Source of the DNA: Paracoccaceae bacterium
GTDB lineage: Bacteria > Pseudomonadota > Alphaproteobacteria > Rhodobacterales > Rhodobacteraceae
Reading direction: 5' to 3'
DNA length: 64,000 nucleotides
Assembly (NCBI GenBank): GCA_902602765.1
Contig: CACKSH010000002.1
Location: 1 to 64,000, forward strand
Shown: one piece after another, positions 19,006-47,801 of the stretch
How the letters are laid out: every line of letters begins with the position of its first letter
Position numbering within the stretch: position 1 is the stretch's first letter
The notes under the pieces: model-generated
Told to the model about the DNA's origin: nothing
The model's database searches: none
What the model saw: only the letters and a program-made list of their open reading frames with translations
Made by a program: the position numbers and the translations under genes

Positions 19006-19017
19006 GACCTGTTTTGT

Positions 19018-20448: not shown

Positions 20449-20461
20449 TGTTAACTTTCAT

Positions 20462-23616: not shown

Positions 23617-23776
23617 GCGGCATCCTCCCAATAATTTTTGCTCCACCAATAGAGTCGCTTATACTCGACTGCACATAGATCAACCTATAATAATATTTGC
23701 ACAATATTAAAAATCATCACTAGAAGCAACGAACGGCAGAGTAACCCGCCGTTCGAATAAACTCTAAATGAGCAGA

Positions 23777-24724: not shown

Positions 24725-24835
24725 TATTCCTCCCTTTCAATACAATTCGACGCTACATCTTAAAATGATGCAAAACTTTCCTGTGGAATATAAACTGTCT
24801 CTTAGAAAGTTTTATAAGTCAATAGTGTTGAGTTG

Positions 24836-24876
24836 ACCTCCTAAGTTAGTATAGTTAACCTCTTAAGTTAGTATAG
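24836..24876. promoter_or_regulatory. Tandem 19-bp direct repeats, 22-bp period, in divergent promoter region
   Basis: Two copies of ACCTCyTAAGTTAGTATAG start at 24836 and 24858, differing by one base. The 22-bp period equals two DNA turns. They lie between the divergent binding-protein gene (start 24724) and the BetI-like regulator (start 24919), about 45 bp upstream of the latter, and are the obvious candidate operator for that TetR-family protein. Confidence 0.6.
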
Positions 24877-24918
24877 CTATCCGTGAGACGAGTTCATAAC
24901 TTGGGTGATACTAAATAA

Positions 24919-25590
24919 ATGCAAGCGCGATCAATTAGTTCAATCAGGCGTTCAGAGCTTTCACAAGCAGCATTTGAAGCGGTAATTAGATACGGTTTGC
25001 GCGGCACCACACTTGAAAAGGTCGGTGAAATAGCCGGCGTATCAAAAGGCGTGGTTCTTCATCACTTTAAGGACAAGAGCGCATTACTTGAGGCTGTTTT
25101 TAGGCGCTCAAATTCATTATTGAATATTTCTCTTCTGCGCCTCTATCGTCACACTGAAAGTCCATATGAAAGATTTTGGGCCATTGCTTACGCAAACTTT
25201 TCAGAAACTATTTACAATCGGGAGGTCTGCCAAGCCTGGGTATCACTTCTGGCAGAAGTTCCCCATAATGCCATGTGTCAAAGGGTACAGGCAGCAAACA
25301 ATGCTCGTATTAAAAGTAATTTATCGCATGAACTAAAGCATTTTCTTTTGGGGAATAGAGTATCCGAAGTCGCAAACCTTCTAGGCACTTTAATTGACGG
25401 AATATGGGTGCGTGCTGGATTATTTGCTATTACACCTGATTGTGAAAAGGCACTCGATGAATTTGAGTTTACTACCCTCTATCTTTTAGAAGCATCATCA
25501 GAACAGCAAAAATATCACAGAGCTGCTCGCGAGAAAATCAAAACCATCGCTAAGATCGCCCTCAGTCCAGAACTATTTCAGCCTAAATAA
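24919..25590 (+). CDS. TetR-family transcriptional regulator, BetI-like
   Basis: A 223-residue repressor. The N-terminal helix-turn-helix reads TTLEKVGEIAGVSKGVVLHHFKDKSALLEAV at about residues 27-57, ending with the TetR signature HHFKDK. The ligand domain has FWAIAYANFSETIYNREVCQAWVSLLAEV and LIDGIWVRAGL, closely following BetI, the choline-responsive repressor of bet genes. Its divergence from the onium importer and its position near the choline-dehydrogenase-like gene support control by choline or a similar onium compound. Tandem repeats at 24836-24876 are its likely binding site. It ends 8 bp from the convergent EamA gene. Confidence 0.88.
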   Translation: MQARSISSIRRSELSQAAFEAVIRYGLRGTTLEKVGEIAGVSKGVVLHHFKDKSALLEAVFRRSNSLLNISLLRLYRHTESPYERFWAIAYANFSETIYNREVCQAWVSLLAEVPHNAMCQRVQAANNARIKSNLSHELKHFLLGNRVSEVANLLGTLIDGIWVRAGLFAITPDCEKALDEFEFTTLYLLEASSEQQKYHRAAREKIKTIAKIALSPELFQPK

Positions 25591-26678: not shown

Positions 26679-28334
26679 ATGGAGTATGAGTATATAATTG
26701 TTGGTGCCGGTTCAGCTGGATGTGTGCTTGCAAATCGCCTTACTGACGATGGCAGGCATCGTGTTCTCCTCATTGAAGCTGGACCAAAAAATAATGCCTT
26801 GTCTCTTAAAATTCCGGCGGCAGTCCTTAAAAATCTTCAAAGTACAAAATATAACTGGGCCTATCAAGGTGAGCCCGAACCCGAATTGGGGGGACGCGTC
26901 ATTACGCATGACCGTGGCAAAACATTGGGTGGGTCTTCATCTATAAACGGGCTATGTTTCATTCGTGGTCATGCATTGGATTTTGAAGGATGGCGACAGT
27001 CTGGATGCGAAGGCTGGGGCTATGCCGATGTCCTACCATATTTCAAGCGTCTCGAAAATTACTCCGGAGGTGAGAGTGAATATCGGGGTGGAGATGGTCC
27101 TTTAGCAGTTCATAGACCCAAACCACAAAACCCACTTTATAAAGCGTTTATCGAGGCTGGCAGAGACGCAGGTTACCAGACTACTGATGATATTTGCGGG
27201 TATCGCCAAGAAGGGTTTGGTGTTTTTGATATGAGCATTGAAAATGGGGAGAGAAATAGTACGGCCAAAGCTTATCTTGACCCAGCTAGACCAAGAAAAA
27301 ATCTTACAGTTATAACCAATACGCAAGTTCAGAAAATTCTTTTCAATGGCAATGAAGCGACCGGTATTAGCTACAAGAAGGCAGATGGAGAAATCATTAA
27401 AGTTGATGCGTTGAAAGAAGTCATCCTAAGTGCAGGTGCCGTCGGCAGTCCACAACTGTTAATGCTCTCTGGAGTGGGCCCTGCTTCACATCTTAAAGAC
27501 CATGGCATCTCCATCATAGCAGATATGCCTGGTGTCGGCCAAAATCTCAATGATCATCCTGATTTTGTTCTCAAATATAAGTGCCTTGAGCCTGTTTCTA
27601 TTTGGCCACAGACACGGCTCGTCGGGCGAACCTTAGCAGGGATACGCTGGCTCTTACGGCGTGATGGAATTTGCGCTTCAAACCAATTTGAAGCCGTAGC
27701 CTGCGTTCGATCAGCCGCAGGAGTTGAATATCCTGATATTCAGTTAACAATCTCACCTGCCGCAGTTGATGATCAGACATGGACGCCCCTGCCAGAACAT
27801 GCGTTTCAGATCCATGTTGGCCTTATGCGTAACTTTAGTAGAGGCAACATCACCCTTCGCGATTCTGATCCCGCATCAGCACCACGCATTCTGGCGAATT
27901 ATATGAAGGACCCTCGTGATCGTGATCTTTTGCTTAAAGGTATTAGAATTGTGCGCGAAATCGCAAACCAACCTGCTTTCAAGCCATTTTGTGGCGAAGA
28001 GATTTATCCTGGCGTTGCCGCTCAAACCGATAATGAATTAAACGTTTGTCTTGACGAAAAACTTAATACACAGTGGCATCTTTCTGGAACCGCTCGTATG
28101 GGTGACAGTAATAATCGTGAGGCAGTGGTCGACCCTCATGGGAAGGTTCATGGCCTATCTAAGCTGAGAATAGTGGACGCATCTATTATGCCTGCGGCAA
28201 CCAACGGGAACACTAACAGTCCAACCATAATGATCGCAGAGAAACTAAGCGACTCTATTCTTGGCAGAACTCCATTGCCGCGCACAGAGGTCCCAGTATG
28301 GCAAAACAAAAATTATGAAACTTGCCAGCGTTGA
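26679..28334 (+). CDS. GMC-family oxidoreductase, choline-dehydrogenase-like
   Basis: A 551-residue FAD enzyme. The N-terminal dinucleotide fold is YIIVGAGSAGCVLANRLTDD, the second GMC signature is GKTLGGSSSINGLCFIRGH near residue 82, the PS00624-like motif is ILSAGAVGSPQLLMLSGVGP, and the C-terminus has the active His in QWHLSGTARMG (about 467) and the partner residue in NGNTNSPTIMIAEK. Typical BetA relatives have the same length and oxidise primary alcohols such as choline. It begins the plus-strand run GMC, VOC, GcvT, BisC-like, CoA-lyase with gaps of 22 bp or less, strongly suggesting one operon. Substrate: an onium alcohol is plausible. Confidence 0.9.
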   Translation: MEYEYIIVGAGSAGCVLANRLTDDGRHRVLLIEAGPKNNALSLKIPAAVLKNLQSTKYNWAYQGEPEPELGGRVITHDRGKTLGGSSSINGLCFIRGHALDFEGWRQSGCEGWGYADVLPYFKRLENYSGGESEYRGGDGPLAVHRPKPQNPLYKAFIEAGRDAGYQTTDDICGYRQEGFGVFDMSIENGERNSTAKAYLDPARPRKNLTVITNTQVQKILFNGNEATGISYKKADGEIIKVDALKEVILSAGAVGSPQLLMLSGVGPASHLKDHGISIIADMPGVGQNLNDHPDFVLKYKCLEPVSIWPQTRLVGRTLAGIRWLLRRDGICASNQFEAVACVRSAAGVEYPDIQLTISPAAVDDQTWTPLPEHAFQIHVGLMRNFSRGNITLRDSDPASAPRILANYMKDPRDRDLLLKGIRIVREIANQPAFKPFCGEEIYPGVAAQTDNELNVCLDEKLNTQWHLSGTARMGDSNNREAVVDPHGKVHGLSKLRIVDASIMPAATNGNTNSPTIMIAEKLSDSILGRTPLPRTEVPVWQNKNYETCQR

Positions 28335-28356
28335 TGTTTAATTAAGGAGTGAAGTA

Positions 28357-28743
28357 ATGATTGCGTATGTAATGGTTGGGACAAACGATCTGGAGAGGGC
28401 AGTCAAATTTTATGATCTATTAATGCCTAAGATGAATATGGTTCGTGTAGAAACGGATAAAGACTTTGCTGCATACGCTCCCAAAAGTAAGCCTGAAAAA
28501 ATTGAATTTTATGTTACTAAACCATTTGATAGTAACCGCGCAAACTCTGGAAACGGCACTATGATTGCCCTTGCAGTAGAAACCATCCAAATTGTTGCTG
28601 ACTGTCATAAGGCCGGCATTGATGCAGGAGGAAAAGACGAGGGGGCTCCAGGTTTTCGTCCAGCACATGGAAAAATATACTATGCCTATCTTCGAGATCT
28701 TGACGGAAACAAACTTTGTTTCGTGCATGAACAAGAGTTTTAA
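28357..28743 (+). CDS. VOC-family (glyoxalase/bleomycin-resistance fold) protein
   Basis: A 128-residue vicinal-oxygen-chelate protein. The two beta-alpha-beta-beta-beta units begin at MIAYVMVGTNDLERAVKFYDLL and MIALAVETIQIVADCHKAG. The C-terminal YAYLRDLDGNKLCFVHE has the DxDGN turn and metal-binding Glu of the fold. Such proteins are lyases, dioxygenases or isomerases, or bind small molecules. Located between the choline-dehydrogenase-like enzyme and the second GcvT-like demethylase, its stop overlaps the next start (TAATG), so it is translationally coupled to that pathway. Reaction unknown. Confidence 0.82.
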   Translation: MIAYVMVGTNDLERAVKFYDLLMPKMNMVRVETDKDFAAYAPKSKPEKIEFYVTKPFDSNRANSGNGTMIALAVETIQIVADCHKAGIDAGGKDEGAPGFRPAHGKIYYAYLRDLDGNKLCFVHEQEF

Positions 28744-29957
28744 TGATGAGTATGCCTGAGCTGCCATTCCTTAAGTTCGACGCCGTTCATTCTGTTTATA
28801 CAGGTAGCAAGGCGTTATCACCTTTCCATGAATGCTATGCTAATAAAGATACCATCCTGCGACTAGCAGCTGGTCGCTTCTTTGCCCATTATAATGGTGA
28901 AGATATCGAGGAGGCATATTGGGCATTACGTAATAGAGCCGCACTTTTTGATGTCCCAGAAAGGCCAGTGGAATTAAGCGGACCAGATGTTATTGGATTT
29001 CTAGATCAAATTTTTACTCGCCAGAGCGATCACCTTAAAGTTGGTAGTGGGCATTATACACTAGCCTGCAATTACAATGGTGGCCTATTTATGGACGGTA
29101 TTTTGTTTCGCCTCGGTGAGAAAAAGTTTTGGTTCGTACATCCCGATGGTGATCTCGATACCTGGTTTCTGGCTCATAGTCACAATTATAATGTATCAAT
29201 TTCCGACCCACAATCGCGCGTCCTTCAGGTGCAAGGACCAAAATCCCTTGCGATCATAAATACAGCGACAAATGGCAGTGTCGACCAGACCATGGGGTAT
29301 TTTAAGGCTGGCATTTTTACCATTGGGGGACAGTCCGTACTAATATCTAGAACAGGATGGACCGGTGAATTAGGGTATGAAATATACACTCTTGGCCAAA
29401 ATACAGACTACAAACGTTTATGGAAAGAGCTAATCCATTCTGGCAAAAAATATGGTATGGTTTTCAGTAGCATGCAGGCTATGAATATCCGCAGAATAGA
29501 GGCAGGTATTCTTGATAGCGGCAGTGATTTTGATGCAAGCATGGCACCTGGTGAAGCTGGGCTTCACAGATTTGTCGATAAAAATAAAAAATATTTCATA
29601 GGCCACGAAGCCATTAACAAAAGGAATAAAGACAAACGAATTCATGGGGTATTAACTGGAGGTTATATACCTAAGAGTGGTGATCTTGTTCATGATGGCA
29701 AAAACGCTTTAGGGTATGTAACGACGGGCGCCTATTCTCCAGCGTTCGAAGCAGGAATTGGTTATGTCAGATTCAACATTGCGGAGGACCGGATAGGAAA
29801 AAATTATTATATTGGCGCTTTGGAGAGCTCAAAGAATAATTGTACGATTGTTGCTTTACCTTTTTACGATAAGAATAAGAAGAAACCCAAAATGGCAAAC
29901 CTTGACTTAAAGGAAAGTATAACGCTTGATATTATTCAAAAATCTGGGATGAATTAA
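28743..29957 (+). CDS. GcvT/DmdA-family demethylase (copy 2)
   Basis: A 404-residue paralogue of the protein at 17839, with the same blocks: GRFFAHYNGEDIEEAYWALRN, GPDVIGFLDQIFTRQ, GGLFMDGILFRLGEKKFWFV, SRVLQVQGPKS, SRTGWTGELGYEIY and a C-terminal FIGHEAI barrel. It has a Lys/Asn-rich tail. The start overlaps the VOC stop, and the next gene begins after 2 bp, so it lies in the core of the operon. The first copy is in a different transcription unit about 10 kb away. The pair may remove successive methyl groups, as happens with multi-methylated onium compounds; that is inference. Confidence 0.85.
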   Translation: MMSMPELPFLKFDAVHSVYTGSKALSPFHECYANKDTILRLAAGRFFAHYNGEDIEEAYWALRNRAALFDVPERPVELSGPDVIGFLDQIFTRQSDHLKVGSGHYTLACNYNGGLFMDGILFRLGEKKFWFVHPDGDLDTWFLAHSHNYNVSISDPQSRVLQVQGPKSLAIINTATNGSVDQTMGYFKAGIFTIGGQSVLISRTGWTGELGYEIYTLGQNTDYKRLWKELIHSGKKYGMVFSSMQAMNIRRIEAGILDSGSDFDASMAPGEAGLHRFVDKNKKYFIGHEAINKRNKDKRIHGVLTGGYIPKSGDLVHDGKNALGYVTTGAYSPAFEAGIGYVRFNIAEDRIGKNYYIGALESSKNNCTIVALPFYDKNKKKPKMANLDLKESITLDIIQKSGMN

Positions 29958-29959
29958 GT

Positions 29960-32263
29960 ATGGGCCTCACTAGTTCACATTGGGGAGTTTACGAGTTTGT
30001 CGTCAAAAATGGGCGCCTTTCAGAACTTAATCCCTTTAGCCATGATCCTGATCCATCCCCAATTGGTCCGTCGATAATTGACTTGCTTGAGGATCGTACA
30101 AGGATAACCAAACCTGCAGCACGTGAGAGTTGGCTGGATGGTGGCCCAGGGACAGCAACACATAAACGCGGGAGTGACCGTTTCGTTACATTGAGTTGGG
30201 ATGAAGCAGAAAAACTTGTAGCAAAGGAATTAGAGCGCGTTATCAAGACGAAGGGAAATCAAGCAATTTATGCCGGATCATACGGTTGGGCAAGTGCGGG
30301 CCGTTTTCATCATGCTCAAAGCCAAGTTCACCGTTTCCTAAATTCAATCGGCGGGTATACCTCCTCAAAAAACACCTATAGTTATGCTGCCGCAGAAGTC
30401 ATCATCCCCCATGTTTTAGGCGGTAATTTAATGGAATTATTAACTCTGCAAACCAGCTGGCAATCTGTTTGCGAAAATACTGAGTTAATGGTGGCTTTTG
30501 GGGGATTGCCTGCGTTTAACAGTCAGATCAGCAACGGCGGAACCGGTGCACATATCCAACGTCTTGGCGCAATAAAGGCCGCCGCCGCTGGAACAAAATT
30601 TGTGAATCTTTCCCCACGTCGCTCTGATGTGAAATCAGATATTGACGAAGATTGGTATAATCTGCGACCGAATACAGATGTCGCTGTAATGTTGGCTATG
30701 GCTTATCATTTACTTGTTGAAGATTTGCATGATGGCTATTTTCTCGATAAATACACTGTTGGATTTGAGATATTCCAAGCATATCTACTTGGACAAAAAG
30801 ATGGGGTCCCAAAAACTCCCGCCTGGGCCGCTAGTATTAGCGGTATGGCTGAGGCAGACATCATTTCGCTAACTAGAGAGATGACTAGTAAACGCACCAT
30901 GTTAACAGTAAGCTGGTCGCTAACTCGCCAGCAATATGGAGAGCAGCCTTTTTGGGCAGCAACGGCCCTAGCTGCAATGCTTGGTCAAATGGGCAAACCT
31001 GGCGGTGGAATAGCTTATGGCTATACCATTACAAATTACCTTGGCAACAATGTTTTCAAAATGCCTTATGCTCCCCTACCTCAGAAAAAAAATTCAATTG
31101 CTGATTTCATTCCAGTTGCAAGGGTGAGCGATATGTTACTGAACCCAGGTCAGAAATTTGATTATGATGGCAAAGAATATATTTATCCAGACATTGATCT
31201 GATCTACTGGGCAGGAGGCAACCCATTTCATCATCACCAAAATATTACTCGCTTGAGGAAAGCATGGGAGAAACCTTCAACAGTTATTGTCAATGAATGG
31301 TGTTGGAATGCTCTCGCACGCCATGCCGATATAATCCTTCCCTGCACCACCACTCTCGAACGACAAGATATTGGAATGACGCCTCGTGATCCTTTTGTAA
31401 TTTCAATGGATAAAGCCATTGAACCTATCGGTGAAGCTAGGAATGATTACGATATTTTCGCTGGAATAGCTCGTAACTTGGATACCGAATACGCTTTTAC
31501 CGAAGGCCGTTCTGCGGAAGATTGGCAAGAATGGATCTGGGAACAGTCACGTGAGCGAGCGGCAAAATTAAATGTTAAAATGCCCGATTATCAAAGCTTT
31601 CGTAAAACTGGCTTCTATAAATCACCAGAATTAAATGAAGATCGTATTTTCCTTTCAGATTTTTTTAATGATCCTGATACAAATCCTTTAAAAACCCCTA
31701 GTGGCAAAATTGAAATATTTTCTGAGACAATTGATAGTTTTGATTATGATAATTGTCCTGGTCATCCAACCTGGATGGAGCCAGCTGAATGGCTTGGTGC
31801 AAAGAATAAAACCTATCCACTGCATTTGATCTCAAATCAGCCTAGGACAAAACTTCATTCACAAATGGATAACGGGGCATTAAGTTCTTCTATTAAGATA
31901 AAAGGCCACCAACCATTAGAGATGAACCCCGTTGATGCAAAAGCTCGTGGTATTACTGAAGGTGATATTGTTAAGGTATTCAATGGAAGAGGAGCTTGTC
32001 TTTGCGGGGCTAACATTACAAATGATGTAATGCCAGGAGTAGTTATTATCAGCACTGGCTCGTGGTATGACCCCGTTGACCCAGCTGATCCTAACAGCAT
32101 GTGTAAACATGGGAACCCTAATGTACTTTCACCAGATATAGGAACCTCAAAACTTGGCCAAGGCCCTGCTGCTCATAGCTGTCTTGCCGAAATCGAATTG
32201 TATGAAGGTCCCGCTCAAAATATAACTGCGTTTAACCCACCAGAAATTATAAAAAAGAAATAG
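29960..32263 (+). CDS. BisC/TorZ-like molybdopterin S- or N-oxide reductase, cytoplasmic
   Basis: A 767-residue member of the DMSO-reductase family that follows biotin sulfoxide reductase (BisC) from end to end: SSHWGVYE at the N-terminus, FVTLSWDEA, IYAGSYGWASAGRFHHA, GGYTSSKNTYSYAAAE with the likely molybdenum-ligand Ser141, LAAMLGQMGKPGGGIAYGY, YWAGGNPFHHHQN, HADIILPCTTTLERQD, and the C-terminal SNQPRTKLHSQMDN domain. No N-terminal Tat signal and no iron-sulfur cysteine motif exist, so it acts in the cytoplasm with bis-MGD only. It lies in an operon with demethylase and dehydrogenase genes, which is unusual; it may reduce the sulfoxide or N-oxide form of the imported compound. Confidence 0.88.
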   Translation: MGLTSSHWGVYEFVVKNGRLSELNPFSHDPDPSPIGPSIIDLLEDRTRITKPAARESWLDGGPGTATHKRGSDRFVTLSWDEAEKLVAKELERVIKTKGNQAIYAGSYGWASAGRFHHAQSQVHRFLNSIGGYTSSKNTYSYAAAEVIIPHVLGGNLMELLTLQTSWQSVCENTELMVAFGGLPAFNSQISNGGTGAHIQRLGAIKAAAAGTKFVNLSPRRSDVKSDIDEDWYNLRPNTDVAVMLAMAYHLLVEDLHDGYFLDKYTVGFEIFQAYLLGQKDGVPKTPAWAASISGMAEADIISLTREMTSKRTMLTVSWSLTRQQYGEQPFWAATALAAMLGQMGKPGGGIAYGYTITNYLGNNVFKMPYAPLPQKKNSIADFIPVARVSDMLLNPGQKFDYDGKEYIYPDIDLIYWAGGNPFHHHQNITRLRKAWEKPSTVIVNEWCWNALARHADIILPCTTTLERQDIGMTPRDPFVISMDKAIEPIGEARNDYDIFAGIARNLDTEYAFTEGRSAEDWQEWIWEQSRERAAKLNVKMPDYQSFRKTGFYKSPELNEDRIFLSDFFNDPDTNPLKTPSGKIEIFSETIDSFDYDNCPGHPTWMEPAEWLGAKNKTYPLHLISNQPRTKLHSQMDNGALSSSIKIKGHQPLEMNPVDAKARGITEGDIVKVFNGRGACLCGANITNDVMPGVVIISTGSWYDPVDPADPNSMCKHGNPNVLSPDIGTSKLGQGPAAHSCLAEIELYEGPAQNITAFNPPEIIKKK

Positions 32264-32272
32264 GAAAGAGCA

Positions 32273-33133
32273 ATGACTGAAAATACTTCCATACAACCAC
32301 GTCGAAGTTTTATTTTCGTACCAGGACTTAGGCCAGACATGTTTCCCAAAGCCGTTACTAGTGGAGTTGATATGGTCTGTGTGGAGTTGGAAGATGGCAT
32401 CGCGCCGAAAGACAAGGCTGATGCGCGAAAAAAAGCATTAGCACTTTTTAATGAACCACATTCTGATGATGGTGTTGAGCGCATTGTACGCATCAACTCA
32501 ATGCGTGAAAAATTTGGTATCGAAGATGTGAATGCAATTCTTTCTGCAAAAATACCCCCTCCCGCCTTAATGATGCCAAAGGTGCGCAGTCCAGATGAAG
32601 TTATAATATTGGATCAGCTGTTATCTGAAGCGGGGCATGATACCCGCCTTCATGTCATCATTGAGACTAATGAGGGATTAGAAGCCGCTTATGAAATCGC
32701 CCACTCTAGTGATAGGATGGATGCTATGTTTTTTGGGGCTATTGACATGGCACCTGAATTACGTTGTGACATGGCCTGGGAACCTTTACTTTATGCACGG
32801 TCAAAGGTAGTCCACGCAGCCGCTAGTGCGGGTCTTGACGTTATAGACGTTCCTTTTCTTGATTTAGATGACCTTGATGGTATGCGAGTTGCTGCCGAAC
32901 AAGCACGTATGCTTGGCTTTTCTGGAAAGGGCTCAATACATCCAAAGCAAATCCCTATCCTAAATGAAATATTCACGCCGTCTGCAGACCAGATTTCTCG
33001 TGCAAGAAGAACCATCGCTGAATTTGAAAAAGCAGATACTGGTCTAGTTGTGATTGACGGAAAATTAATCGAAAAACCTGTATTGAGGGAAATGTATAGA
33101 ATGGTAAGCATCGCTGATAGAATGGGGCTTTAA
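32273..33133 (+). CDS. CoA-ester lyase of the HpcH/HpaI-citrate lyase beta family
   Basis: A 286-residue TIM-barrel lyase. The family features are RRSFIFVPGLRPDMFPKA (CoA/Arg region), CVELEDGIAPKDKADAR with the metal-binding Glu-Asp, IVRINSM, LHVIIETNEGLEAAYEIA, and GFSGKGSIHPKQIPILNEIF, the usual ending before the C-terminal lid. Related enzymes are malyl-CoA, citramalyl-CoA and (3S)-malyl-CoA lyases or thioesterases. It is 9 bp after the molybdoenzyme with a GGAAAGAG site and ends the operon. It would split or form a C-C bond of a CoA intermediate, for example a hydroxyacyl-CoA, late in the pathway. Confidence 0.88.
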   Translation: MTENTSIQPRRSFIFVPGLRPDMFPKAVTSGVDMVCVELEDGIAPKDKADARKKALALFNEPHSDDGVERIVRINSMREKFGIEDVNAILSAKIPPPALMMPKVRSPDEVIILDQLLSEAGHDTRLHVIIETNEGLEAAYEIAHSSDRMDAMFFGAIDMAPELRCDMAWEPLLYARSKVVHAAASAGLDVIDVPFLDLDDLDGMRVAAEQARMLGFSGKGSIHPKQIPILNEIFTPSADQISRARRTIAEFEKADTGLVVIDGKLIEKPVLREMYRMVSIADRMGL

Positions 33134-33255: not shown

Positions 33256-34491
33256 TTGACAAAAATATCCGAAATGCCCGCTGTCGGCCGACACTTTATG
33301 TCAAATCTCGAGCTTACAGTTCCAACTAATGATTCATGGACAGACCCAGTTCCAGCCAATAAGAGGCGTGTATCCATCGTTTCGACAGCAGCCGTATCAC
33401 GGCGGGGAGACAAGCCATTTTCTTGGCTTGCAAAGGACTCCAGGACCTTTCACAAAACTGAACGTGACTTGGTAATGACACACGTTGCTGTAGAGTTTGA
33501 CAGATCTGCGTGGCAACAAGACCTAAATACAATTATACCGCTCGATAGACTAGAAGAAATGGCAGCAGACGGAGAAATTTCTTCAGTTGCGGAAGAGCAT
33601 TATTCTTTCATGGGCGCAGCAGATCCTGTGACGATGGAAAAATCAGCGCGAGCAGCTGCGGCTAAAATGAAGCAGGAAGGTGTGAACACGGTTTTTTTAA
33701 TACCTATATGACCGTTTTGCACGCGCGCCGTGTGCGGGCTGGCTCATTATTTTGAATCAGAGGGTTTATCGACAATACTAGTAGGTTTTGTACGAGAACA
33801 CATTGAGGTAATTCGCCCCCCTCGTTCTTTGTTCTTAGATTTCCCAATGGGAAGGGGCATGGGTAAGCCTAACGACCCGGAATTTCAGAAAAAAGTAATT
33901 CGCGCAGCGTTCAAATTACTGGAGGCAAGCAGCGGCCCGATCATCGACGATTTCCCCGAAATTATTCCTGTAAAGGAAGGGCGCATGGGCTATGCGCTAC
34001 CACCCCAGCTCGTTCTGAGTGTCGATGACATTGGCGATGTAGATATTGTTTTATCCGAGGTTAGAAACGAAATGGAGGCTCTAAGACCAGATTACGCTGC
34101 CGCAATTGCAGCGCGGGGGCGCACAACAGTTGGAGCCAGCGGACTTGCAATTGAGGAGTTAGCGCCCTTCGTAGTCAGTTTTCTCGAAGGAGAAATTCCA
34201 AAAAGCCCTAGAAAAGGCATGCCTGCAATTCCACTTCTGAAACTAGTAGTGGAGGATCTGGAAGCCTACTACACCGAGACACGCACCCACCGCGACAGTA
34301 TTGACGACTTAGAACTAATGGGAGAATGGTTTTGGGAAAAAACCAAAGCCGGGCGGCTTCTTCTATTGCTGGAAGCTGTATCTATCGCCTCTGAAAATAA
34401 GGTTATGCTTCAGATTGTCGAGATGTCCCTGATGGCCCCTCGTTTTTGGTCTGACGGTCCGTTGCCGGGAACGTCAGCAGCAGGCTGGTGA
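33256..34491 (+). CDS. PrdB/GrdB-family selenoprotein with in-frame UGA (selenocysteine)
   Basis: Two open frames, 33256-33708 and 33712-34491, are in the same phase with one TGA between (33709-33711). The TGA falls exactly at the redox site of the glycine/betaine/sarcosine/proline-reductase selenoprotein-B family: TVFLIPI-U-PFCTRAVCGL forms a UxxC motif, preceded by the family blocks AVSRRGDKPFSWL and PLDRLEEMAADGEISSVAEEHYSFMG and followed by PPRSLFLDFPMGRGMGKPND. Reading the TGA as Sec gives about 411 residues, Sec152 from TTG 33256 (or Sec146 from ATG 33274). A hairpin lies just after the UGA (33719-33735), and selD, selA, selB and tRNA-Sec are next door. The reduced substrate in this probably aerobic bacterium is unknown. 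Confidence 0.9.
33719..33735 (+). promoter_or_regulatory. Candidate bacterial SECIS hairpin
   Basis: GCACGC pairs with GTGTGC (one G-U pair) around a 5-nt loop GCGCC, starting 8 nt after the UGA. The position inside the reading frame right after UGA, and a G in the apical loop, match bacterial SECIS elements recognised by SelB. The stem is short, and outer pairs are only partly present. Confidence 0.6.
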
Positions 34492-34710: not shown

Positions 34711-35775
34711 ATGTCCAAAATACCTTCTCTGACCAGCATGGCAAAATCGGCGGGATGTGCTGCAAAGATTGCACAAACTGATCTCGCCCACGCGCTGGCC
34801 TATCTTCCCAAAGCGGATGATCCTAATTTATTAGTGGACCACGCCGGATCTGATGACGCTGCAGTTTACCGACTTTCCGCTGAACTAGCGCTAGTGGAGA
34901 CCGTCGATATTTTCCCACCAATTGTTGATGATCCATTTGATTATGGACGGATTGCGGCAACCAATGCCCTTAGTGATATCTATGCTATGGGTGCAAAGCC
35001 GATTAGTGCCCTCAGCTTTGTTAGTTGGCCGGTTGAAGTATTAGGCACAGATCGGCTTGGTGCCGTTTTGAAAGGCGCAGCCAGTATTTGTAGCAAAGCT
35101 GGAATTTCGATTGCAGGTGGCCATTCAATTGTTGATAACGAGCCAAAATTTGGCCTCTTTGTGACAGGCTTAGTGCATCCAGATAAAATCATCGATAATA
35201 CTGGCGTAAAAGAAGGTGATTATTTGGTCTTAACCAAAAAGATTGGCACGGGTGTATTAACTACAGCTGCCAAACGAGGATACCTATCCCCTGACAGATT
35301 AGATGAGGCCGTCCTGTCAATGACCACTCTAAATGACACTGCAGCCTCAGTGATGATGGAGAATAATATAACCTCTGCTACGGATATAACCGGGTTCGGT
35401 CTGCTTGGACATCTTGGCAATATGCTTAAAGCATCCTCAATTACTAATCAAAAAAAACTTGGTGCCAAACTGTTCTATTCTGAAATACCCCTCTTCGAAG
35501 GTTTAGAAGATCTCCTTAGTAAAGGCCTTTGTCCGTCAGGCAGTAAGCGGAATCTCGAAAGTGCAGCTCCACTAACAACATTTTCGGGTGACATTAGCCA
35601 CGACTATCAACTCTTGTTAGCAGATGCGCAGACCTCTGGTGGCTTACTGATGTCGGTACCAAAAGCCCAGCTCAAGACACTTTTGACCGGCCTTAGAAAT
35701 CGCGTTGTACCTTGCGCAGTAATTGGCCAAGTTATACAGACTGAAGAAGCAGCTCAGATACAGGTCGAAAGCTAA
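34711..35775 (+). CDS. selD: Selenide, water dikinase
   Basis: A 354-residue SelD, the enzyme that makes selenophosphate from selenide and ATP for both selenocysteine and selenouridine synthesis. The active-site loop near the N-terminus is KSAGCAAKI with Cys16, so this is the Cys and not the Sec form. LLVDHAGSDDAAVYRL, DIFPPIVDDPFDYGRIAATNALSDIYAMGAKPISAL, and IAGGHSIVDNEPKFGL are the AIR-synthase-type ATP and metal sites. The C-terminal QLLLADAQTSGGLLMSV is standard. ATG follows AAAGGTTAAAGAC. It lies 219 bp after the selenoprotein gene on the same strand and converges with the tRNA-Sec/selBA genes. Confidence 0.95.
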   Translation: MSKIPSLTSMAKSAGCAAKIAQTDLAHALAYLPKADDPNLLVDHAGSDDAAVYRLSAELALVETVDIFPPIVDDPFDYGRIAATNALSDIYAMGAKPISALSFVSWPVEVLGTDRLGAVLKGAASICSKAGISIAGGHSIVDNEPKFGLFVTGLVHPDKIIDNTGVKEGDYLVLTKKIGTGVLTTAAKRGYLSPDRLDEAVLSMTTLNDTAASVMMENNITSATDITGFGLLGHLGNMLKASSITNQKKLGAKLFYSEIPLFEGLEDLLSKGLCPSGSKRNLESAAPLTTFSGDISHDYQLLLADAQTSGGLLMSVPKAQLKTLLTGLRNRVVPCAVIGQVIQTEEAAQIQVES

Positions 35776-35853: not shown

Positions 35854-35949
35854 TGGCGAAAGAGCGTGGGAGTCGAACCCACCAGAGACGTGGTACGCCT
35901 CTCACTAGATTTGAAGTCTAGGCGCCCCACCAGGGTGCGATCCTCTTCC
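35854..35949 (-). tRNA. selC: tRNA-Sec (anticodon UCA)
   Basis: A 96-nt tRNA with features unique to tRNA-Sec: UCA anticodon in the loop ACTTCAAAT flanked by a CTAGA/TCTAG stem, a long variable arm (GAGAGGCGTACC-ACGTCTC), T-arm GTGGG-TTCGACT-CCCAC, and an encoded GCCA 3' end. The acceptor stem has seven clear pairs (GGAAGAG with CTCTTTC, one G-U), and the eighth position, expected paired in bacterial tRNA-Sec, is G opposite G. The D stem also has one mismatch. It lies just downstream of selB on the same strand. Confidence 0.93.
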
Positions 35950-35957: not shown

Positions 35958-37883
35958 TTATTTCTTACCCAAAACATTTGACATAGGCTGCCGCAAGCGA
36001 CGCAAGTCACCCACACGTGTAGTAAAGCCCACCTGATCAAAATATTCCAGCACATCTATAATAAAATTTCGGCCCATTCTTACCTCGTCTCGAAAATCGC
36101 TTGTTGAAAATAGCCCGTCCACTGATTTAGACGCTAATTTCTCTGCCGTGATTTTAAGAGTTGTTACTAAAGTTGAAGGTACGTAGCGATTTTTTCCCAC
36201 TGGGATAAAATCACCGAGCTTTACACCAATTTTCAAGGTCTTTTCGAGTACAGAAACTTCAGTGCCAATTTGGTGAGCTGCCTGCTGTAGACTTGGAGGA
36301 GTTCCACCATCTGGCGCTAGAATATTTGCCGCGATTGTTAGAATAGCTTTTTCTTGCTCAGAAAAGTGAATATTATGTGATGGTAAATAAAACCGGCTAC
36401 CATTTACGCAAATTCGCTTTTCAGAAATCATTATTTTTAGCGCTAGCTTCAGGCTATCTTCCTCAAAAAAGACCCCAAGTTGTACCTTTATGTCCTTAAT
36501 ACTTGCCCCAATCGATTTTGGTTTACTTCTATGAATACTTCCTACCGCACTCAGAATTAGGGCCATTAATTCGCGCCAACGAGACTCACAAAAAATTCGC
36601 TCTTTTGGAGCATCTCCTACCCGCAATAATCCTAATGAAACTATCATTGCATCTATTTGATCAGATGGGAGATTGTGTGAGATTGCAAATGGCTGCAACT
36701 GCACACCACTTTCGCTATGCGTTGCTAATGCTTGAAGGACCACCGCTGTGTTTTCTTTATTCATGGCTTTTAAGATAGCAATGCGACTCGGTTTAGCCCG
36801 GCCTCGTTTAAATGAGAATGGATCGATTATATGCCCACCTGCAATTGTACGTTGCGCAGATTGATCGCGCAGAACAAAGCGGTCTCCACAAAGAGCAAAT
36901 GCATCATGAGGCAGGACCAGTTGGGCTAAGCCACTTGCTCCTGGTGGAATGTTTCCACCTGACAAAACGGCCACCCTTGCTGGCAAATGATCTGATCCGA
37001 TGTGCAAGTGTGTTGGGGTCCAATGTTTTAAGGGTTTGGTTTCGGTTTTTAACACTTGCAAATTAACATCCATACGTCTTGTCGGGACATGTAGGTCGGA
37101 ATGCGCTAGCCATGTGCCACGCTTTATAGATTTTTCACCTACACCACGCCCAACGATGCTCAGCGCGCAGCGTTCACCAGCCTTTGCGCTGGCACGTATT
37201 TGGTTGTGAACCCGTATCTCACGGACACGGACAGAAGCTCCATTTGATAAGAGCGTCAAACTCTCCGCACTATGAACGGTTCCGGAGAATATCATCCCGG
37301 TCACAATCAAACCCACCCCTTTTAAATTAAAAGCTCGATCAATGGCCATTCTGAAGTAACCGCGAACTACCTTAGGTTTTCGAAATTTAGCACGGAACGT
37401 TAGCTCTTCTTTCAGAGCCTCAATACCAATTCCTTTTGGAGCACAAACGGGATAAATTGCATGGTCCCGATTTCCCTGTTCTTTAAGAAAGTTATTGACC
37501 TGCTTGCTAACCGCTGACAGTTCATCTGGTGCCACACGATCAATCTTGGTCAATACAATTAAAATATTTCTGATACCAAGTAGATCGAGTATAGCAAGAT
37601 GCTCACGCGTTTGAGGCATTACACCATCATCTGCTGCTATTACCAAAAGACCCAAATCAATTCCGGCTACACCCGCCAACATATTGCGAATAAACTTCTC
37701 GTGTCCAGGGACATCAACAAACCCTAGGACCTCACCGTCTGACAGAATGTTGTAGGCGAACCCAAGATCTACCGTTAGCCCACGCGCCTTTTCTTCTGGC
37801 AAACGATCTGTATTGGTACCCGTCAGTGCTTTTATTAACTCAGTCTTACCGTGGTCCACATGCCCAGATGTTGCAACAATCAT
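35958..37883 (-). CDS. selB: Selenocysteine-specific elongation factor
   Basis: A 641-residue SelB. The GTPase domain has GHVDHGKTELIKALTG (G1), DVPGHEKFIRNMLAG (G3) and VLTKIDRVAPDEL (G4), close to EF-Tu. Domains II and III follow to about residue 345 (GDRFVLRDQSAQRTIAGG). The C-terminal 290 residues contain winged-helix repeats that bind the SECIS hairpin, for example KLGDFIPVGKNRYVPSTLVTTLKI and LFSTSDFRDEVRMGRNFIIDVLEYFDQVGFTTRVGDLRRL. The start overlaps the selA stop by ATGA, so selA and selB are coupled. It delivers Sec-tRNA to UGA in the neighbouring selenoprotein mRNA. Confidence 0.95.
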   Translation of the reverse strand: MIVATSGHVDHGKTELIKALTGTNTDRLPEEKARGLTVDLGFAYNILSDGEVLGFVDVPGHEKFIRNMLAGVAGIDLGLLVIAADDGVMPQTREHLAILDLLGIRNILIVLTKIDRVAPDELSAVSKQVNNFLKEQGNRDHAIYPVCAPKGIGIEALKEELTFRAKFRKPKVVRGYFRMAIDRAFNLKGVGLIVTGMIFSGTVHSAESLTLLSNGASVRVREIRVHNQIRASAKAGERCALSIVGRGVGEKSIKRGTWLAHSDLHVPTRRMDVNLQVLKTETKPLKHWTPTHLHIGSDHLPARVAVLSGGNIPPGASGLAQLVLPHDAFALCGDRFVLRDQSAQRTIAGGHIIDPFSFKRGRAKPSRIAILKAMNKENTAVVLQALATHSESGVQLQPFAISHNLPSDQIDAMIVSLGLLRVGDAPKERIFCESRWRELMALILSAVGSIHRSKPKSIGASIKDIKVQLGVFFEEDSLKLALKIMISEKRICVNGSRFYLPSHNIHFSEQEKAILTIAANILAPDGGTPPSLQQAAHQIGTEVSVLEKTLKIGVKLGDFIPVGKNRYVPSTLVTTLKITAEKLASKSVDGLFSTSDFRDEVRMGRNFIIDVLEYFDQVGFTTRVGDLRRLRQPMSNVLGKK

Positions 37884-39304
37884 CCGACTTTTAAGCCCTT
37901 CAAGTTTTCAACAAAGCCCTTTTCGTCTTCGAGACACCTAAGGTCGAACCAAAGCGCATCACCAGAAATACGGCCAATCACTGGAATTTGTAGTTTCCGA
38001 AAGGCCTGTGCAAGATTTTCCAGAGTTTTGCCGGAACGTCGAAGATCAGGCCGTGCTATCTTAAGCGCAGCGCTTTGCAGCCTGTCGACCGGCAATGCTC
38101 CGCTGCCCACCTGGCTATATGTTTGTTCAACTGTAACTTTACATAGTTCTAAGCACTCCTGAAGTACCTTGGCCAGACGATGCGCCAGCTTTTCAATTTC
38201 GACAGGGTCACGCGTAAGTAGGCGTAACGTCGGTAACTCTTCAGCCAAACGTTTGGTGTCAGTATACAGGCAAAGCACAGCCTGGAGGGCAGCCAAAGTA
38301 ACTTTGTCAGGCCGCATAGCCCGAGTCATAGGGCTTCGCTTAATCTTTTCTATCAAATCACAGCGACCAGCAATTATCCCTGACTGTGGTCCCCCAAGAA
38401 GCTTGTCACCACTAAAGGTCACCAGATCAGCGCCAGATTTCAATGCATCAGAGACAGTTGTTTCATAGGGAAGGTTATAAGGCTCCAAGTCAATAAGTGT
38501 GCCACTGCCCAAATCTATAATGAAGGGTAAGTCGTGATTATGCGCAATCCTAGAGAGCTCTCTCTCTGAAACACTTTTGGTGAACCCTTTAATCTCGAAG
38601 TTACTGGTATGAACCTTCATTATTAACGCAGTCTTTGAACTAATTACTGACTCAAAATCTGCTTCGTTCGTGCGATTGGTTGTACCAACCTCAACTAGCT
38701 TACAACCTGCGCGGGCCATGATATCCGGCATTCGGAAAGATCCACCAATTTCAATCAACTCACCGCGTGAAACAGGGACCTCCTTGCGACGCGCTAAGCA
38801 GTTTAGCATCAACAAAACAGCAGCGGCGTTATTGTTGACGACAAGCGCAGCTTCTGCCCCAGTCAATTGGCATATCAAAATTTCCGCATGCTTATGTCGA
38901 TCACCACGTTTACCTGTTTTTAAATCAAATTCTACATTGCTTGCGCCTCGGGCAACATTAACCATTGCCTGTATTGCAGATTCAGGTAGAGGGGCGCGGC
39001 CGAGGTTGGTATGCAGTACTGTACCTGTTAGATTATAAACTGGGCGAATCGATGGAAGTAAAACGCGCTCTGTCTCTTCCAAAACTGATTGTAAGAGCGC
39101 AGCCATATTCGTAGATGCACCGGCCAATATACTCTGGCGTACATTTATCAAGACGCTTTGAACGCATCGCGTGACCAAATCCACACCATGCATGCTAACC
39201 AGTTTTTGCACTGATGGAGTATTCAAAAGAATATTCACTGATGGAATTTTTTTTGGCGCGTCGATTATTGTCATTTCGATTTCATTTGGCAATCTGCTAC
39301 TCAT
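37880..39304 (-). CDS. selA: L-seryl-tRNA(Sec) selenium transferase
   Basis: A 474-residue PLP enzyme that converts Ser-tRNA(Sec) to Sec-tRNA(Sec) with selenophosphate. Family motifs are RPVYNLTGTVLHTNLGRAPLP near residue 87, GASNVEFDLKTGKRGDRH near 120, VVNNNAAAVLLML near 155, and the PLP lysine Lys301 in TFSGDKLLGGPQSGI. Length is normal for bacterial SelA. First gene of the selA-selB-selC run; selD is convergent, so all four genes for selenocysteine insertion lie within about 4.6 kb. It diverges from the SBP56 gene with a 316-bp gap. Confidence 0.95.
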   Translation of the reverse strand: MSSRLPNEIEMTIIDAPKKIPSVNILLNTPSVQKLVSMHGVDLVTRCVQSVLINVRQSILAGASTNMAALLQSVLEETERVLLPSIRPVYNLTGTVLHTNLGRAPLPESAIQAMVNVARGASNVEFDLKTGKRGDRHKHAEILICQLTGAEAALVVNNNAAAVLLMLNCLARRKEVPVSRGELIEIGGSFRMPDIMARAGCKLVEVGTTNRTNEADFESVISSKTALIMKVHTSNFEIKGFTKSVSERELSRIAHNHDLPFIIDLGSGTLIDLEPYNLPYETTVSDALKSGADLVTFSGDKLLGGPQSGIIAGRCDLIEKIKRSPMTRAMRPDKVTLAALQAVLCLYTDTKRLAEELPTLRLLTRDPVEIEKLAHRLAKVLQECLELCKVTVEQTYSQVGSGALPVDRLQSAALKIARPDLRRSGKTLENLAQAFRKLQIPVIGRISGDALWFDLRCLEDEKGFVENLKGLKVG

Positions 39305-39620: not shown

Positions 39621-41027
39621 ATGAATAAACCAATGAAACCAGATCCTACTTTTCATGCATCGCCTATACTTGCGATGCGGGCACCAGTGGAAAATTTTGC
39701 ATTTACAATTATGCTTGGTAAAGACACATCACATCATGATGGCTTGGCAGTAATTGATTTAAGAAAAGATTCTAAAACCTATGGTGAAATCGTTCATCAA
39801 GTAATAGCACCAACAATCGGAGATGAATTTCATCACTTTGGGTGGAACGCCTGCTCTTCATCGTTGTCTCCACTTTCTGGACATGCTTTTCTAGAGCGAC
39901 GCTACCTAATTGTACCAGGTATAAGATCAAGCCGCATCTATATATTTGATGTCAAAGACCCGCTTAAGGCAAAAATTCACAAGGTTATAGAACCAGAGGA
40001 AGTATTCGAAAAAACCGGTTACTCAAGACCGCACACGATACATTGTGGGCCAGAAGGTATTTATGTCTCAACACTCGGTGGATCTGGGGAAGACGGAACT
40101 GACTCCCCACCAGGTATCTTTATAATGGACTGTGAAACTTTTGATATAATTGGTATTTATGAACTGGACCGTGGCGAACAGGATAAACATTACGACTTCT
40201 GGTGGAACCTGCCACAAAATTACATGGTAAGCTCGGAGTGGGGACTTCCCCCTCAATTCGAAAATGGTGTCGTGCCAGAAGACTTAGTAGGTGGTAAATA
40301 TGGACACAAAATCCATTTCTGGGATCTGAGAGCTCGTAAAAACATTCAAACGATTGATTTGGGTGAAAATTACCAAATGGCTCTTGAAATCAGACCTGCA
40401 CACGACCCAACAAAATCTTATGGCTTCTGTGGTGCAGTTGCTGATAATACCAACCTGCAAGGTGCAGTCTTTACTTGGTGGCGTGACGAGGACGGCAAAT
40501 GGCAAGCGAAGAAAACTATTGCAATTGACCCAAGACCAGAAGACCCAGAAGATCTTCCAGAAATCATAAAAGGTTTTGGAGCCGTACCAGTATTAATAAC
40601 AGATATTGATCTAAGCCTTGATGATAAATATCTCTACGTTGCGTGCTGGGGTATTGGAGAAATGCACCAATATGATGTTTCAGATCCATTCAATCCTGTT
40701 CTGGCAGGAAAAGTTGAGTTGGGTGGCATCGCCAAAGAAACAAAACATCCAAATGGTAAAGATTTTGTCTATGGGCCACAGATGGTTGAAGTCAGCCGTG
40801 ATGGGAAACGTGTCTATTGGACTAATTCCCTGTATTCGACTTGGGATGACCAATTTTATCCCCATCAAGAGGGAGGACAAATGGTCATGGCAAATGTTGG
40901 TGAAAATGGTGGTCTAACTATAGATCCCGATTTTTATGTAAATTTTCCTGAGAACATGCGTGCCCACCAAATTAGACTAGAGGGCGGGGATTGCTCTACA
41001 GATAGCTTCTGTTATCCATCAGTTTAG
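39621..41027 (+). CDS. Selenium-binding protein 56 family, probable methanethiol oxidase
   Basis: A 468-residue SBP56 protein, the family of bacterial methanethiol oxidase (MtoX) and human SELENBP1, which convert methanethiol to formaldehyde, sulfide and hydrogen peroxide. It shows the seven-bladed features GDEFHHFGWNACSSS, RPHTIHCGPEGIYVSTLG, HYDFWWNLPQNYMVSSEWG, LDDKYLYVACWGIGEMHQYDV and the C-terminal MRAHQIRLEGGDCSTDSFCYPSV. The histidines and the Cys in WNACSS are the expected copper or active-site residues. No signal peptide is seen. It would process methanethiol if a methylated sulfur compound is demethylated by the nearby DmdA-like proteins. A membrane protein gene follows at once. 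Confidence 0.9.
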   Translation: MNKPMKPDPTFHASPILAMRAPVENFAFTIMLGKDTSHHDGLAVIDLRKDSKTYGEIVHQVIAPTIGDEFHHFGWNACSSSLSPLSGHAFLERRYLIVPGIRSSRIYIFDVKDPLKAKIHKVIEPEEVFEKTGYSRPHTIHCGPEGIYVSTLGGSGEDGTDSPPGIFIMDCETFDIIGIYELDRGEQDKHYDFWWNLPQNYMVSSEWGLPPQFENGVVPEDLVGGKYGHKIHFWDLRARKNIQTIDLGENYQMALEIRPAHDPTKSYGFCGAVADNTNLQGAVFTWWRDEDGKWQAKKTIAIDPRPEDPEDLPEIIKGFGAVPVLITDIDLSLDDKYLYVACWGIGEMHQYDVSDPFNPVLAGKVELGGIAKETKHPNGKDFVYGPQMVEVSRDGKRVYWTNSLYSTWDDQFYPHQEGGQMVMANVGENGGLTIDPDFYVNFPENMRAHQIRLEGGDCSTDSFCYPSV

Positions 41028-41045
41028 AAATTGGAAGCTACTTCA

Positions 41046-41708
41046 ATGGCGGCCCTGTGGTGGGCTGTCATCCTTTCGGGTGCCTATCATGGCCTAAATC
41101 CTGGTATGGGTTGGCCACTTGCTGTTTCGGCTGCGCTCATGGAACGCAAAGCTGTTGCTATGCCAAAAGCGTTATTACTCTTAACTACTGGACACTTGTT
41201 GGCGATGATTGCGATTTTATTGCCGTTTTCTCTGATGATCTGGCTCATAGAAAGAGAATATGAGATAAGGTTAATTGCTAGTTTTATAGTAATAGGCATG
41301 GGTATCTATTTGCTCATCAACTCGAAACATCCAAGATATCTAGCTCGTATTCATCCAGCGAAATTAGGCTTGTGGTCATTCTTATCCGCCATCGCACATG
41401 GTGCCGCACTGATGCTAGTCCCGATTTATTTAGGAATTTGTCAGATTGCAGAAGATAACGGGAGTACGGAAAATTCAGGGCACCTCGCAGCCCAAAATTT
41501 AATGTCAAATGATTTGTTTACAGCGCTAGGAGTATCGTTAGTACATACGGTTTCAATGGGACTTGCAGGCGCATTTTTGGCAATTCTTGTATATTTTTGG
41601 CTTGGGCTCAAATTTATTTCACAAGCGTGGTTTAATTTGGATAAGATTTGGGCATGCAGTCTGATACTTGTCGGAGCATTTGGTCTTTATTTTAACGGTA
41701 CCCATTAA
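41046..41708 (+). CDS. Six-helix membrane protein with NicO-like HGLNPG motif
   Basis: About 220 residues from ATG 41046, preceded by GGAAG at 9 nt (a TTG at 41031 is a weaker choice). Six hydrophobic helices are predicted. Helix 1 ends with AYHGLNPGMGWPLAVS, resembling the histidine-containing H-x-L-x-P-G motif of nickel/cobalt (NicO/RcnA-type) and HupE-like transporters, and helix 4 has FLSAIAHGAALMLVP with a second His. It follows the SBP56 gene closely and is probably co-transcribed. SBP56 enzymes use a metal (copper is reported for methanethiol oxidase), so a metal supply role is attractive but unproven. Confidence 0.6.
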   Translation: MAALWWAVILSGAYHGLNPGMGWPLAVSAALMERKAVAMPKALLLLTTGHLLAMIAILLPFSLMIWLIEREYEIRLIASFIVIGMGIYLLINSKHPRYLARIHPAKLGLWSFLSAIAHGAALMLVPIYLGICQIAEDNGSTENSGHLAAQNLMSNDLFTALGVSLVHTVSMGLAGAFLAILVYFWLGLKFISQAWFNLDKIWACSLILVGAFGLYFNGTH

Positions 41709-47468: not shown

Positions 47469-47627
47469 TGCATCCCCTACCGGCCCCATTGGGAGCGATC
47501 GAAATTTCATTATAAAGCAAAAAACTTTCCCCAAGCAGAAAGTATTTTACAGAGGTTTCGCACACCGATCAACTGTTATCAACACATCCAATCAGGTTGA
47601 AACGATACAATCTAGCCTTGGTAACCA

Positions 47628-47749: not shown

Positions 47750-47801
47750 TGGTAGCGGAGAAGGGACTTGAACCCCCAACACGCCGATTATGCTTCCGCT
47801 G
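47750..47801 (-). repeat. Decayed tRNA-Met 3'-end copy (old att site)
   Basis: A 52-bp match to the 3' half of the tRNA-Met at 62452-62528 with a few substitutions (AGAAGGG for AGGAGGG, CCCAAC for CCCGAC, TGCTTC for TGATTC). It includes the encoded CCA and the T-arm. It overlaps the last few codons of the FAD oxidoreductase. It marks an older integration event at the same tRNA. Confidence 0.75.

Follow-up and report, generated by a model that had tools for sequence, protein, structure and literature searches.

The locus raises two questions: whether two open reading frames (ORFs) of one phase, separated by a UGA codon, encode a single selenocysteine (Sec)-containing protein, and what such a protein does in a bacterium for which an aerobic life was thought probable. 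The window, i.e., the whole stretch of 64,000 nucleotides that was analysed, derives from a Paracoccaceae bacterium, and a first reading made from the letters alone (the sequence-only reading) had described the gene as a PrdB/GrdB-family selenoprotein gene, divided by a UGA at a redox-active UxxC motif and lying next to an onium catabolic operon, with the Sec machinery beside it. The gene, its parts and the sel genes beside it are as follows:

33256 to 34491, + strand: selenoprotein gene, 411 codons, TTG start, UGA as putative Sec codon 152, final TGA stop
33316 to 33924, + strand: PrdB-like domain, residues 21-223 (TIGR04483 88.3 bits, PF07355 30.7 bits, alignment with Peptoclostridium acidaminophilum PrdB)
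33709 to 33711, + strand: in-frame UGA, predicted Sec152 of the motif UPFC
33723 to 33739, + strand: predicted SECIS hairpin, stem 33723-33728 with 33734-33739, loop CGUGU 33729-33733
33931 to 34488, + strand: C-terminal helical domain, residues 226-411, seen only in the type-1 subfamily defined below
34711 to 35775, + strand: selD (TIGR00476 360 bits, cut-off 125; no in-frame UGA)
35858 to 35949, - strand: tRNA-Sec gene selC (Rfam 70.4 bits; ARAGORN 35854-35949)
35958 to 37883, - strand: selB (TIGR00475 418 bits, cut-off 242)
37880 to 39304, - strand: selA (TIGR00474 574 bits, cut-off 268)

The frame 33256-34491 holds a single internal TGA (coding part 33256-34488; translation ...LIPIUPFCTRAVCG...), and translation table 11 yields two ORFs in one phase with 151 and 253 aa, as the sequence-only reading had stated. 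The search of a genome collection yielded 31 relatives (L002-L032), and the UGA is found at the identical codon in all 30 that span the site, namely the 29 loci L002-L030 and the remote relative L032 with 32% identity; L031, whose sequence begins past the site, is left out of this count. Homologues with Cys at this position, which the earlier reading had left to be looked for, were found six times, and none of them has a stop at the site. H76, H115, Sec/Cys152, C155, R190, and D334 are invariant over 29 aligned type-1 rows (L101 left out), and all 29 rows carry the UxxC motif if Cys is counted as Sec, so the placement of the UGA at the presumed redox-active position was borne out. Purifying selection acts on both gene halves to a similar degree: dN/dS against L002, L007, and L005 is 0.087, 0.097, and 0.098 5' of the UGA and 0.126, 0.098, and 0.056 3' of it, with dS being saturated on one side or both in the comparisons with L009, L017, and L024. 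The range of 0.056-0.126 speaks against a downstream half that is never translated, the outcome that would have spoken against a selenoprotein.

A hairpin just after the UGA had been proposed as well, and its stem starts 11 bases past the UGA with one G-G mismatch in the window's copy. Among 28 full-length close genes (the window's and those of 27 relatives), 131 four- or six-fold degenerate codons encode an invariant amino acid, and the only five of them that use a single codon across all genes, 156, 157, 158, 159, and 161, lie directly 3' of the UGA. Moreover, among more distant homologues, the peptides following the UGA differ between type-1 proteins (UPxCTRAV) and their type-2 paralogues (UPx(C/D)HQTV), while a stem with a CGUGN loop is kept at equal distance from the UGA in both. 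In a covariation test with 32 of 39 Sec sequences, near-duplicates being left out, double changes were found in five of seven pairs with 47 cells in total, the covariation score was 0.526 compared with 0.173 after shuffling, and 84.8% of the cells can pair compared with 65.9% for shuffled and 61.2% for the best slid control; the outermost pair is formed in only 10/32 sequences, and pair 17-29 fails in 8/32, including the window. The loop CGTG occurs in 38 of 39 Sec genes and in none of six Cys genes, and the mean number of paired positions among the six inner pairs is 5.62 in the 39 Sec genes compared with 3.83 in the six Cys genes; since many of the sequences are related, these counts are not independent events, and since two of the six Cys homologues pair five of six stem positions, the stem alone is no marker of Sec genes.

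The hairpin is thus supported by conservation and covariation and not by its folding energy, which is ordinary in the window (z about -0.5; -2.87 in L032, -1.71 and -0.07 in two others) and was dropped as support for a SECIS element in favour of covariation. For the window sequence, the fold of lowest energy is also a different one from the conserved pairing with the loop CGUGU. A SECIS model (R1) applied to the window's genome gave one site with E 2.6e-10 and the next with E 2.4 (150 of 170 candidates scored); because the model was trained on the same family, this single site leaves room for other selenoproteins.

A plain stop, with the downstream ORF being a gene of its own or a relic, could draw on the GTG at 33730 as a possible start of the second ORF. 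Against it stand the conservation of the UGA, the frozen synonymous sites, the covarying hairpin, the dN/dS values, the restriction of the loop to Sec genes, and the Cys homologues, which continue through the UGA site, and we give this explanation a negligible probability. The split-looking gene most likely makes one selenocysteine-containing protein, and a decoding of UGA 152 as Sec by means of the hairpin and the adjoining SelA/B/C/D machinery is strongly supported by the comparison of sequences.

This machinery is complete, as had been noticed from the sequence alone: selD, tRNA-Sec, selB, and selA were all identified or lie over their cut-offs. At class level, a PrdB-like match was found in 36 of 289 alphaproteobacterial genomes, and SelB is over cut-off in 26 of the 28 genomes with a UGA-type homologue compared with none of the eight with non-UGA matches only, among which the match of G071 holds an internal TAG and that of G230 is short and ends before the site. 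Two genomes depart from this pattern: G011 (77% complete), with a UGA-type gene and SelD and with SelB not over cut-off, and G264 (100% complete), in which a contig of 6 kb carries a type-1 gene with UGA and both SelB and SelD are not over cut-off; this gene (L077:1347-2771) is a contamination or a relic. Other genes of the window also touch on selenium. A tRNA 2-selenouridine synthase (MnmH/SelU, 422 bits, cut-off 266) at 50610-51653 represents a second use of selenophosphate. Directly past selA, 39621-41705 holds the gene of an SBP56-family selenium-binding/methanethiol-oxidase-like protein (Pfam SBP56 565 bits; MtoX model 116 compared with a cut-off of 650), followed by a 225-aa ORF without family match; an SBP56-family gene lies near the sel cluster in no relative, the flanks of the closest relatives stopping short of that place.

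The assignment to the PrdB/GrdB family holds at the level of the superfamily and not of its curated members. The protein scores 30.7 bits with PF07355 (gathering cut-off 22), the match being confined to profile positions 275-344 of 347, and aligns with P. acidaminophilum PrdB with Sec at the matching position, whereas it stays below the cut-offs of the PrdB model TIGR04483 (88.3 compared with 300 bits) and of TIGR01918 (33.3 compared with 65.45 bits); none of the 289 alphaproteobacterial genomes passes the PrdB cut-off. At class level, 38 retrieved regions together with two plasmid loci supplied 23 type-1 genes, of which 21 have Sec and two have Cys, and 19 type-2 genes, of which 15 have Sec and four have Cys. 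All 33 type-1 rows of a 53-row tree share a single branch with support 100/99, with PrdB and L032 flagged by the tree tool as long branches. A profile built from residues 226-411 recognises 22 of 23 type-1 genes at class level and neither PrdB nor any of the 19 type-2 genes; L029 and L032 match as well, being among the sequences of the profile. The sole type-1 miss, L101, was extracted at 280 aa, and the ORF that follows it falls into one cluster with the selenoprotein's C-terminal half. The window protein combines the UPxCTRAV-like motif, the C-terminal helical domain and a place in the one tree group, and judged by these sequence features it is a member of a distinct two-domain subfamily (type 1) of the PrdB/GrdB superfamily that is neither curated PrdB nor GrdB. 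Asp takes the place of the second UxxC residue, Cys, in some type-2 paralogues, so the chemistry of the superfamily need not depend on a Sec-Cys pair.

The C-terminal domain of about 185 residues matches no Pfam family in the window protein, and no relatives of it were detected. An AlphaFold model of this domain alone is helical (pLDDT 79; best Z 4.6, best Foldseek E 0.54), and the model of the whole protein (pLDDT 75.8) matches generic Rossmann-like folds over about residues 31-250 (best Foldseek E 0.009, Z 8.5). Neither set of structural matches gave a functional clue, and a sequence search of solved structures gave nothing below E 0.6; such weak matches of predicted models are no proof that the folds are new. 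Phage records gave no match, ten stretches of viral contigs matched a pattern and none was a relative, and in a 244-genome sample of the window's order a match at E 1e-40 was found only in the window's own genome.

Could the protein act, as the name given in earlier marine surveys suggests, as the selenoprotein subunit in a reductase complex for D-proline, glycine or betaine? It is homologous to PrdB across nearly the full length of the latter, and this is outweighed by the score of 88 compared with 300 bits, by the failure of any of the 289 genomes to pass the cut-off, and by the extra domain, which is absent from the compared PrdB. Moreover, PF09338 (GrdE/PrdA) and PF04723 (GrdA) were found in none of 23 type-1 genomes, including the 82%-complete assembly of the window, while the control, a P. 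acidaminophilum plasmid, gave three matches and one match, respectively. PF09338 is a family that we take to cover PrdA, and its third control match adjoins prdB. The earlier remark that no partner subunits are visible in the window therefore extends to the window's assembly and to 22 other genomes with the same subfamily. COX1, which also argues against such a complex, was found in 10 of 11 genomes tested, i.e., in all nine other type-1 genomes and in the Roseovarius genome of L028 (control plasmid left out); the proposed aerobic life is thus indicated for the relatives, whereas in the window's own 82%-complete assembly COX1 was not found. A subunit of one of these complexes is therefore a very improbable identity for the protein.

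We instead regard it as probable that the type-1 protein is a Sec-containing, stand-alone reductase and the usual selenoprotein of the sel island. Judged by its expected chemistry, it would most likely act alone on a small molecule: the selenolate of Sec152 might attack or reduce the substrate, Cys155 could resolve the adduct by forming a selenenyl sulfide, and the enzyme would be reset by a dithiol of the cell, such as thioredoxin or a lipoyl protein. Neither a pyruvoyl subunit nor a GrdA carrier would be involved, both being absent from the genomes searched.

The sequence-only reading had called the gene stand-alone, which holds for partner subunits and misses its main context, since sel genes are its usual neighbours. 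Of the 31 loci from the first relative search, 30 have sel genes adjoining the selenoprotein gene; in the remaining one, L019, the contig stops 2 bases past the match, and the preceding 4.6 kb hold no sel gene. Which sel gene lies closest varies: selD in the window's group, an oxidoreductase-selD fusion in Roseovarius, selA in L032 and the class-level loci L085 and L088, and selB in others. In G261 and G102 the Roseovarius fusions score above the selD cut-off, but a related NCBI model is named 'fusion_not_SelD', so they may or may not act as SelD. At class level, sel genes lie near 9 of 21 Sec type-1 genes in six families and near none of the 2 Cys type-1 and 19 type-2 genes (Fisher p 0.0014 for 9/21 compared with 0/19, kinship ignored). 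The 12 Sec type-1 genes without a sel gene in the examined stretch, five of these stretches having less than 2 kb on one side, show that membership in the island is not universal, and type-1 genes away from sel genes have mixed neighbours. Type-2 paralogues are neighboured by LLM-class (luciferase-like) oxidoreductases in 7 of 15 loci and by class III CoA-transferases in 5 of 15, one of each being confirmed by family; L068, L070, and other type-2 loci come from alphaproteobacterial genomes in which as many as six PrdB-like matches occur, the majority having UGA.

By gene order and neighbourhood, the type-1 gene appears as the usual selenoprotein member of a Sec-decoding island in several groups of Alphaproteobacteria, and it is likely to be a main reason for the upkeep of the island, a role reported elsewhere for Sec-formate dehydrogenase. 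It may be the main client, other selenoproteins having been sought only as FdhA, SelW, and SelD: the FdhA model gave 26 matches in 14 of 15 genomes, none holding a stop codon, and SelW was matched in 5 of 15 genomes, each time with UGA, and not in the window's assembly. Several type-1 genomes carry further PrdB-like paralogues.

Such a position among sel genes might also mean that the protein serves selenium metabolism itself, by delivery of selenium to SelD or by sensing, and its adjoining of selD, selB or selA in differently ordered clusters of several families fits this idea. However, 12 of the 21 class-level Sec type-1 genes have no sel gene nearby, and Cys type-1 proteins are encoded in G143 (100% complete) and G137 (83%), where SelB and SelD are not over cut-off, so the work of the protein seems independent of selenium metabolism. 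We consider a selenium-metabolic role improbable. In a single case, the Cys gene of G143, the gene of a TauD-family dioxygenase follows the type-1 gene at a distance of 9 bases.

Another neighbour bears on the question how a reductase acting alone would be supplied with electrons. A GcvH-like gene or its remnant occurs in the sel clusters of 11 relatives, and this lipoyl carrier paralogue could be a dedicated redox partner. It lies directly after the selenoprotein gene in the six loci L014, L016, L017, L018, L021, and L027, five of them labelled SAR116, and after selA in L005, L008, L009, L011, and L028, the copy of L028 passing the gcvH cut-off. A second, stop-free GcvH elsewhere in the genome was found for L008, L009, L016, L017, and L028, i.e., for five of the eight searched genomes that gave a match, those of L011 and L021 being left out of the search; no other GcvH was found in the genomes of L005 and L018, and the genome of L027 gave none. 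However, the gene is absent from the window's cluster, the cluster copy of L018 is the sole GcvH found in that assembly and may be the ordinary one, and the copies of L005 (one TGA, one TAG; L005:16071-16430) and L014 (four TAA; L014:11304-11600) are decayed and that of L027 is fragmented, with the selenoprotein intact in these loci. Sister lineages hold a stop-free copy at the place of the two decayed genes, and the genome of L014 has an intact GcvH elsewhere. Because of the decayed copies a dedicated GcvH partner is not favoured, and we hold it to be quite improbable.

The substrate of the proposed reductase may be sought upstream of the gene, where genes of an onium-type module are found:

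17809 to 25590, mixed strands: rest of the module as a whole
17809, + strand: GcvT-family gene, no subfamily cut-off passed among the lists shown
19018, - strand: aldehyde dehydrogenase gene, no subfamily cut-off passed among the lists shown
20462 to 24724, - strand: ProW-, ProV-, and ProX-like transporter; the ATP-binding protein passes the ProV cut-off, the ProX- and ProW-like proteins none
24919, + strand: BetI-like regulator gene, passing one of two BetI cut-offs
26679 to 33133, + strand: part of the module adjoining the selenoprotein gene, a facultative neighbour
26679 (start), + strand: choline dehydrogenase-like GMC gene, passing the choline dehydrogenase subfamily cut-off
28357, + strand: small ORF without family match
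28743, + strand: GcvT-family gene, no subfamily cut-off passed among the lists shown
29960, + strand: BisC/TorA-type molybdoenzyme gene, no subfamily cut-off passed among the lists shown
32273, + strand: HpcH/CitE-like lyase gene, no subfamily cut-off passed among the lists shown

Since most of these proteins pass no subfamily cut-off, the substrate of the module itself is not fixed by family matches. When 52 ORFs of the window were used as queries (at least 45% identity, near the sel cluster of the 31 relatives), the recurring ORFs besides the selenoprotein and sel genes were those of the module, save ORF 45798 in L012 (45%). The module is found near the sel island in 9 of 31 relatives and in four layouts: it is collinear in L002, L003, L004, and L007, in L024 the sel island has the orthologue of the BetI-like regulator gene on one side and that of the GMC gene on the other, in L026 and L031 it adjoins the 17809/19018 pair, and in L008 and L009 a CitE-like gene lies near it. 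In the examined stretch of the other 22 relatives and beside the class-level type-1 genes, no module gene with at least 45% identity was found, several flanks being short and the threshold being strict for remote genomes. The neighbouring onium catabolic operon of the sequence-only reading is thus a recurrent neighbour in 9 of the 31 relatives and missing from the examined stretch of 22.

In keeping with this recurrence, by which nearly all recurring ORFs near the relatives' sel cluster stem from the module, the protein could be the reductase of the onium pathway, cleaving a choline-, betaine- or sulfonium-derived compound of the module like a betaine reductase without GrdA and GrdE. The lack of module genes near 22 of 31 relatives and near class-level type-1 genes argues against it, and the relatives with the module are related lineages, so part of the linkage may be shared ancestry; we judge this role unlikely. 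For the window's lineage, our best guess for the substrate of the stand-alone reductase would be a product of the adjoining choline/betaine-type module. The boldest form of the proposal, which we consider rather unlikely in its entirety, is that the protein, a single polypeptide without a pyruvoyl group, acts in aerobic ocean bacteria as a selenol reductase for the reductive cleavage of betaines and other onium compounds, and that it is the client for which the UGA = Sec code would be kept and passed on as an island where formate dehydrogenase does without Sec.

Elsewhere in the window, 53475-61945 holds an integrase-family gene, a T5orf172-domain protein, a type I restriction-modification set (HsdR-, HsdM-, and HsdS-like) and an AAA_25 protein, near a tRNA-Met at 62452, and looks like an integrated defence island. 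The stretch 46001-50000, with a GC content of about 0.54 compared with 0.39-0.48 in other 2-kb steps, encodes a TPR-repeat protein and a protein with a photolyase FAD-binding domain and is possibly foreign.

How does the protein relate to what is known? No account of the two-domain subfamily or of its sel linkage was found in the open literature, including the parts covered of PMC13188914, PMC9312934, PMC5029168, PMC12013277, and PMC8124441, most subscription papers being outside the scope. Two ocean surveys, in the parts that treat PrdB, described 42 'PrdB' selenoprotein genes for the Sargasso Sea (2005, PMC1088965) and 235 'PrdB' selenoproteins for GOS (2008, PMC2398784); these rank there among the most abundant selenoproteins and are filed as proline reductase. 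The earlier statement that the role is undescribed thus holds for the subfamily, of which we found no account, and has to be qualified by these reports: marine Sec-containing 'PrdB' is already known, and it is the two-domain subfamily and its sel linkage that were not found described. The marine proteins share with type 1 the UxxC motif, pfam07355 in the GOS table and abundance in seawater, whereas the two-domain architecture, the linkage to sel islands and the missing partners are not mentioned in the survey parts on PrdB. They probably include the type-1 group. Proteins labelled PrdB had thus been filed under an anaerobic proline reductase; on the evidence above, the window protein is a different one with two domains, and the partners of that reductase are missing from the genomes searched. 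The substrate would help to explain why such bacteria pay for selenocysteine, and Roseovarius aestuarii KCTC 22174 (L028) is a named strain that carries the gene.

Compared with the curated families, type 1 shares with PrdB (TIGR04483) homology over most of PrdB and Sec at the matching position, and it differs by the additional 185-residue domain, by the lack of any PrdA found and by 88 instead of 300 bits; the motif reads UGTC in P. acidaminophilum PrdB and UPFC in the window protein. With GrdB/GrdF/GrdH (PF07355, TIGR01918), it shares the C-terminal end of PF07355, whereas the TIGR01918 cut-off is missed, no GrdA or GrdE was found, and type-1 relatives have COX1. The closest parallel in genomic context is given by the selABC-fdhA islands of Proteobacteria, in which Sec genes cluster with the gene of a client selenoprotein and for which joint transfer was proposed (PMC1794560). 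The type-1 gene is likewise clustered with sel genes as a client. The FdhA-model matches in the 15 genomes examined (14 with matches) hold no UGA, and the place in the sel cluster that is reported elsewhere for formate dehydrogenase (PMC1794560) is held here, in several families, by the type-1 PrdB-like protein.
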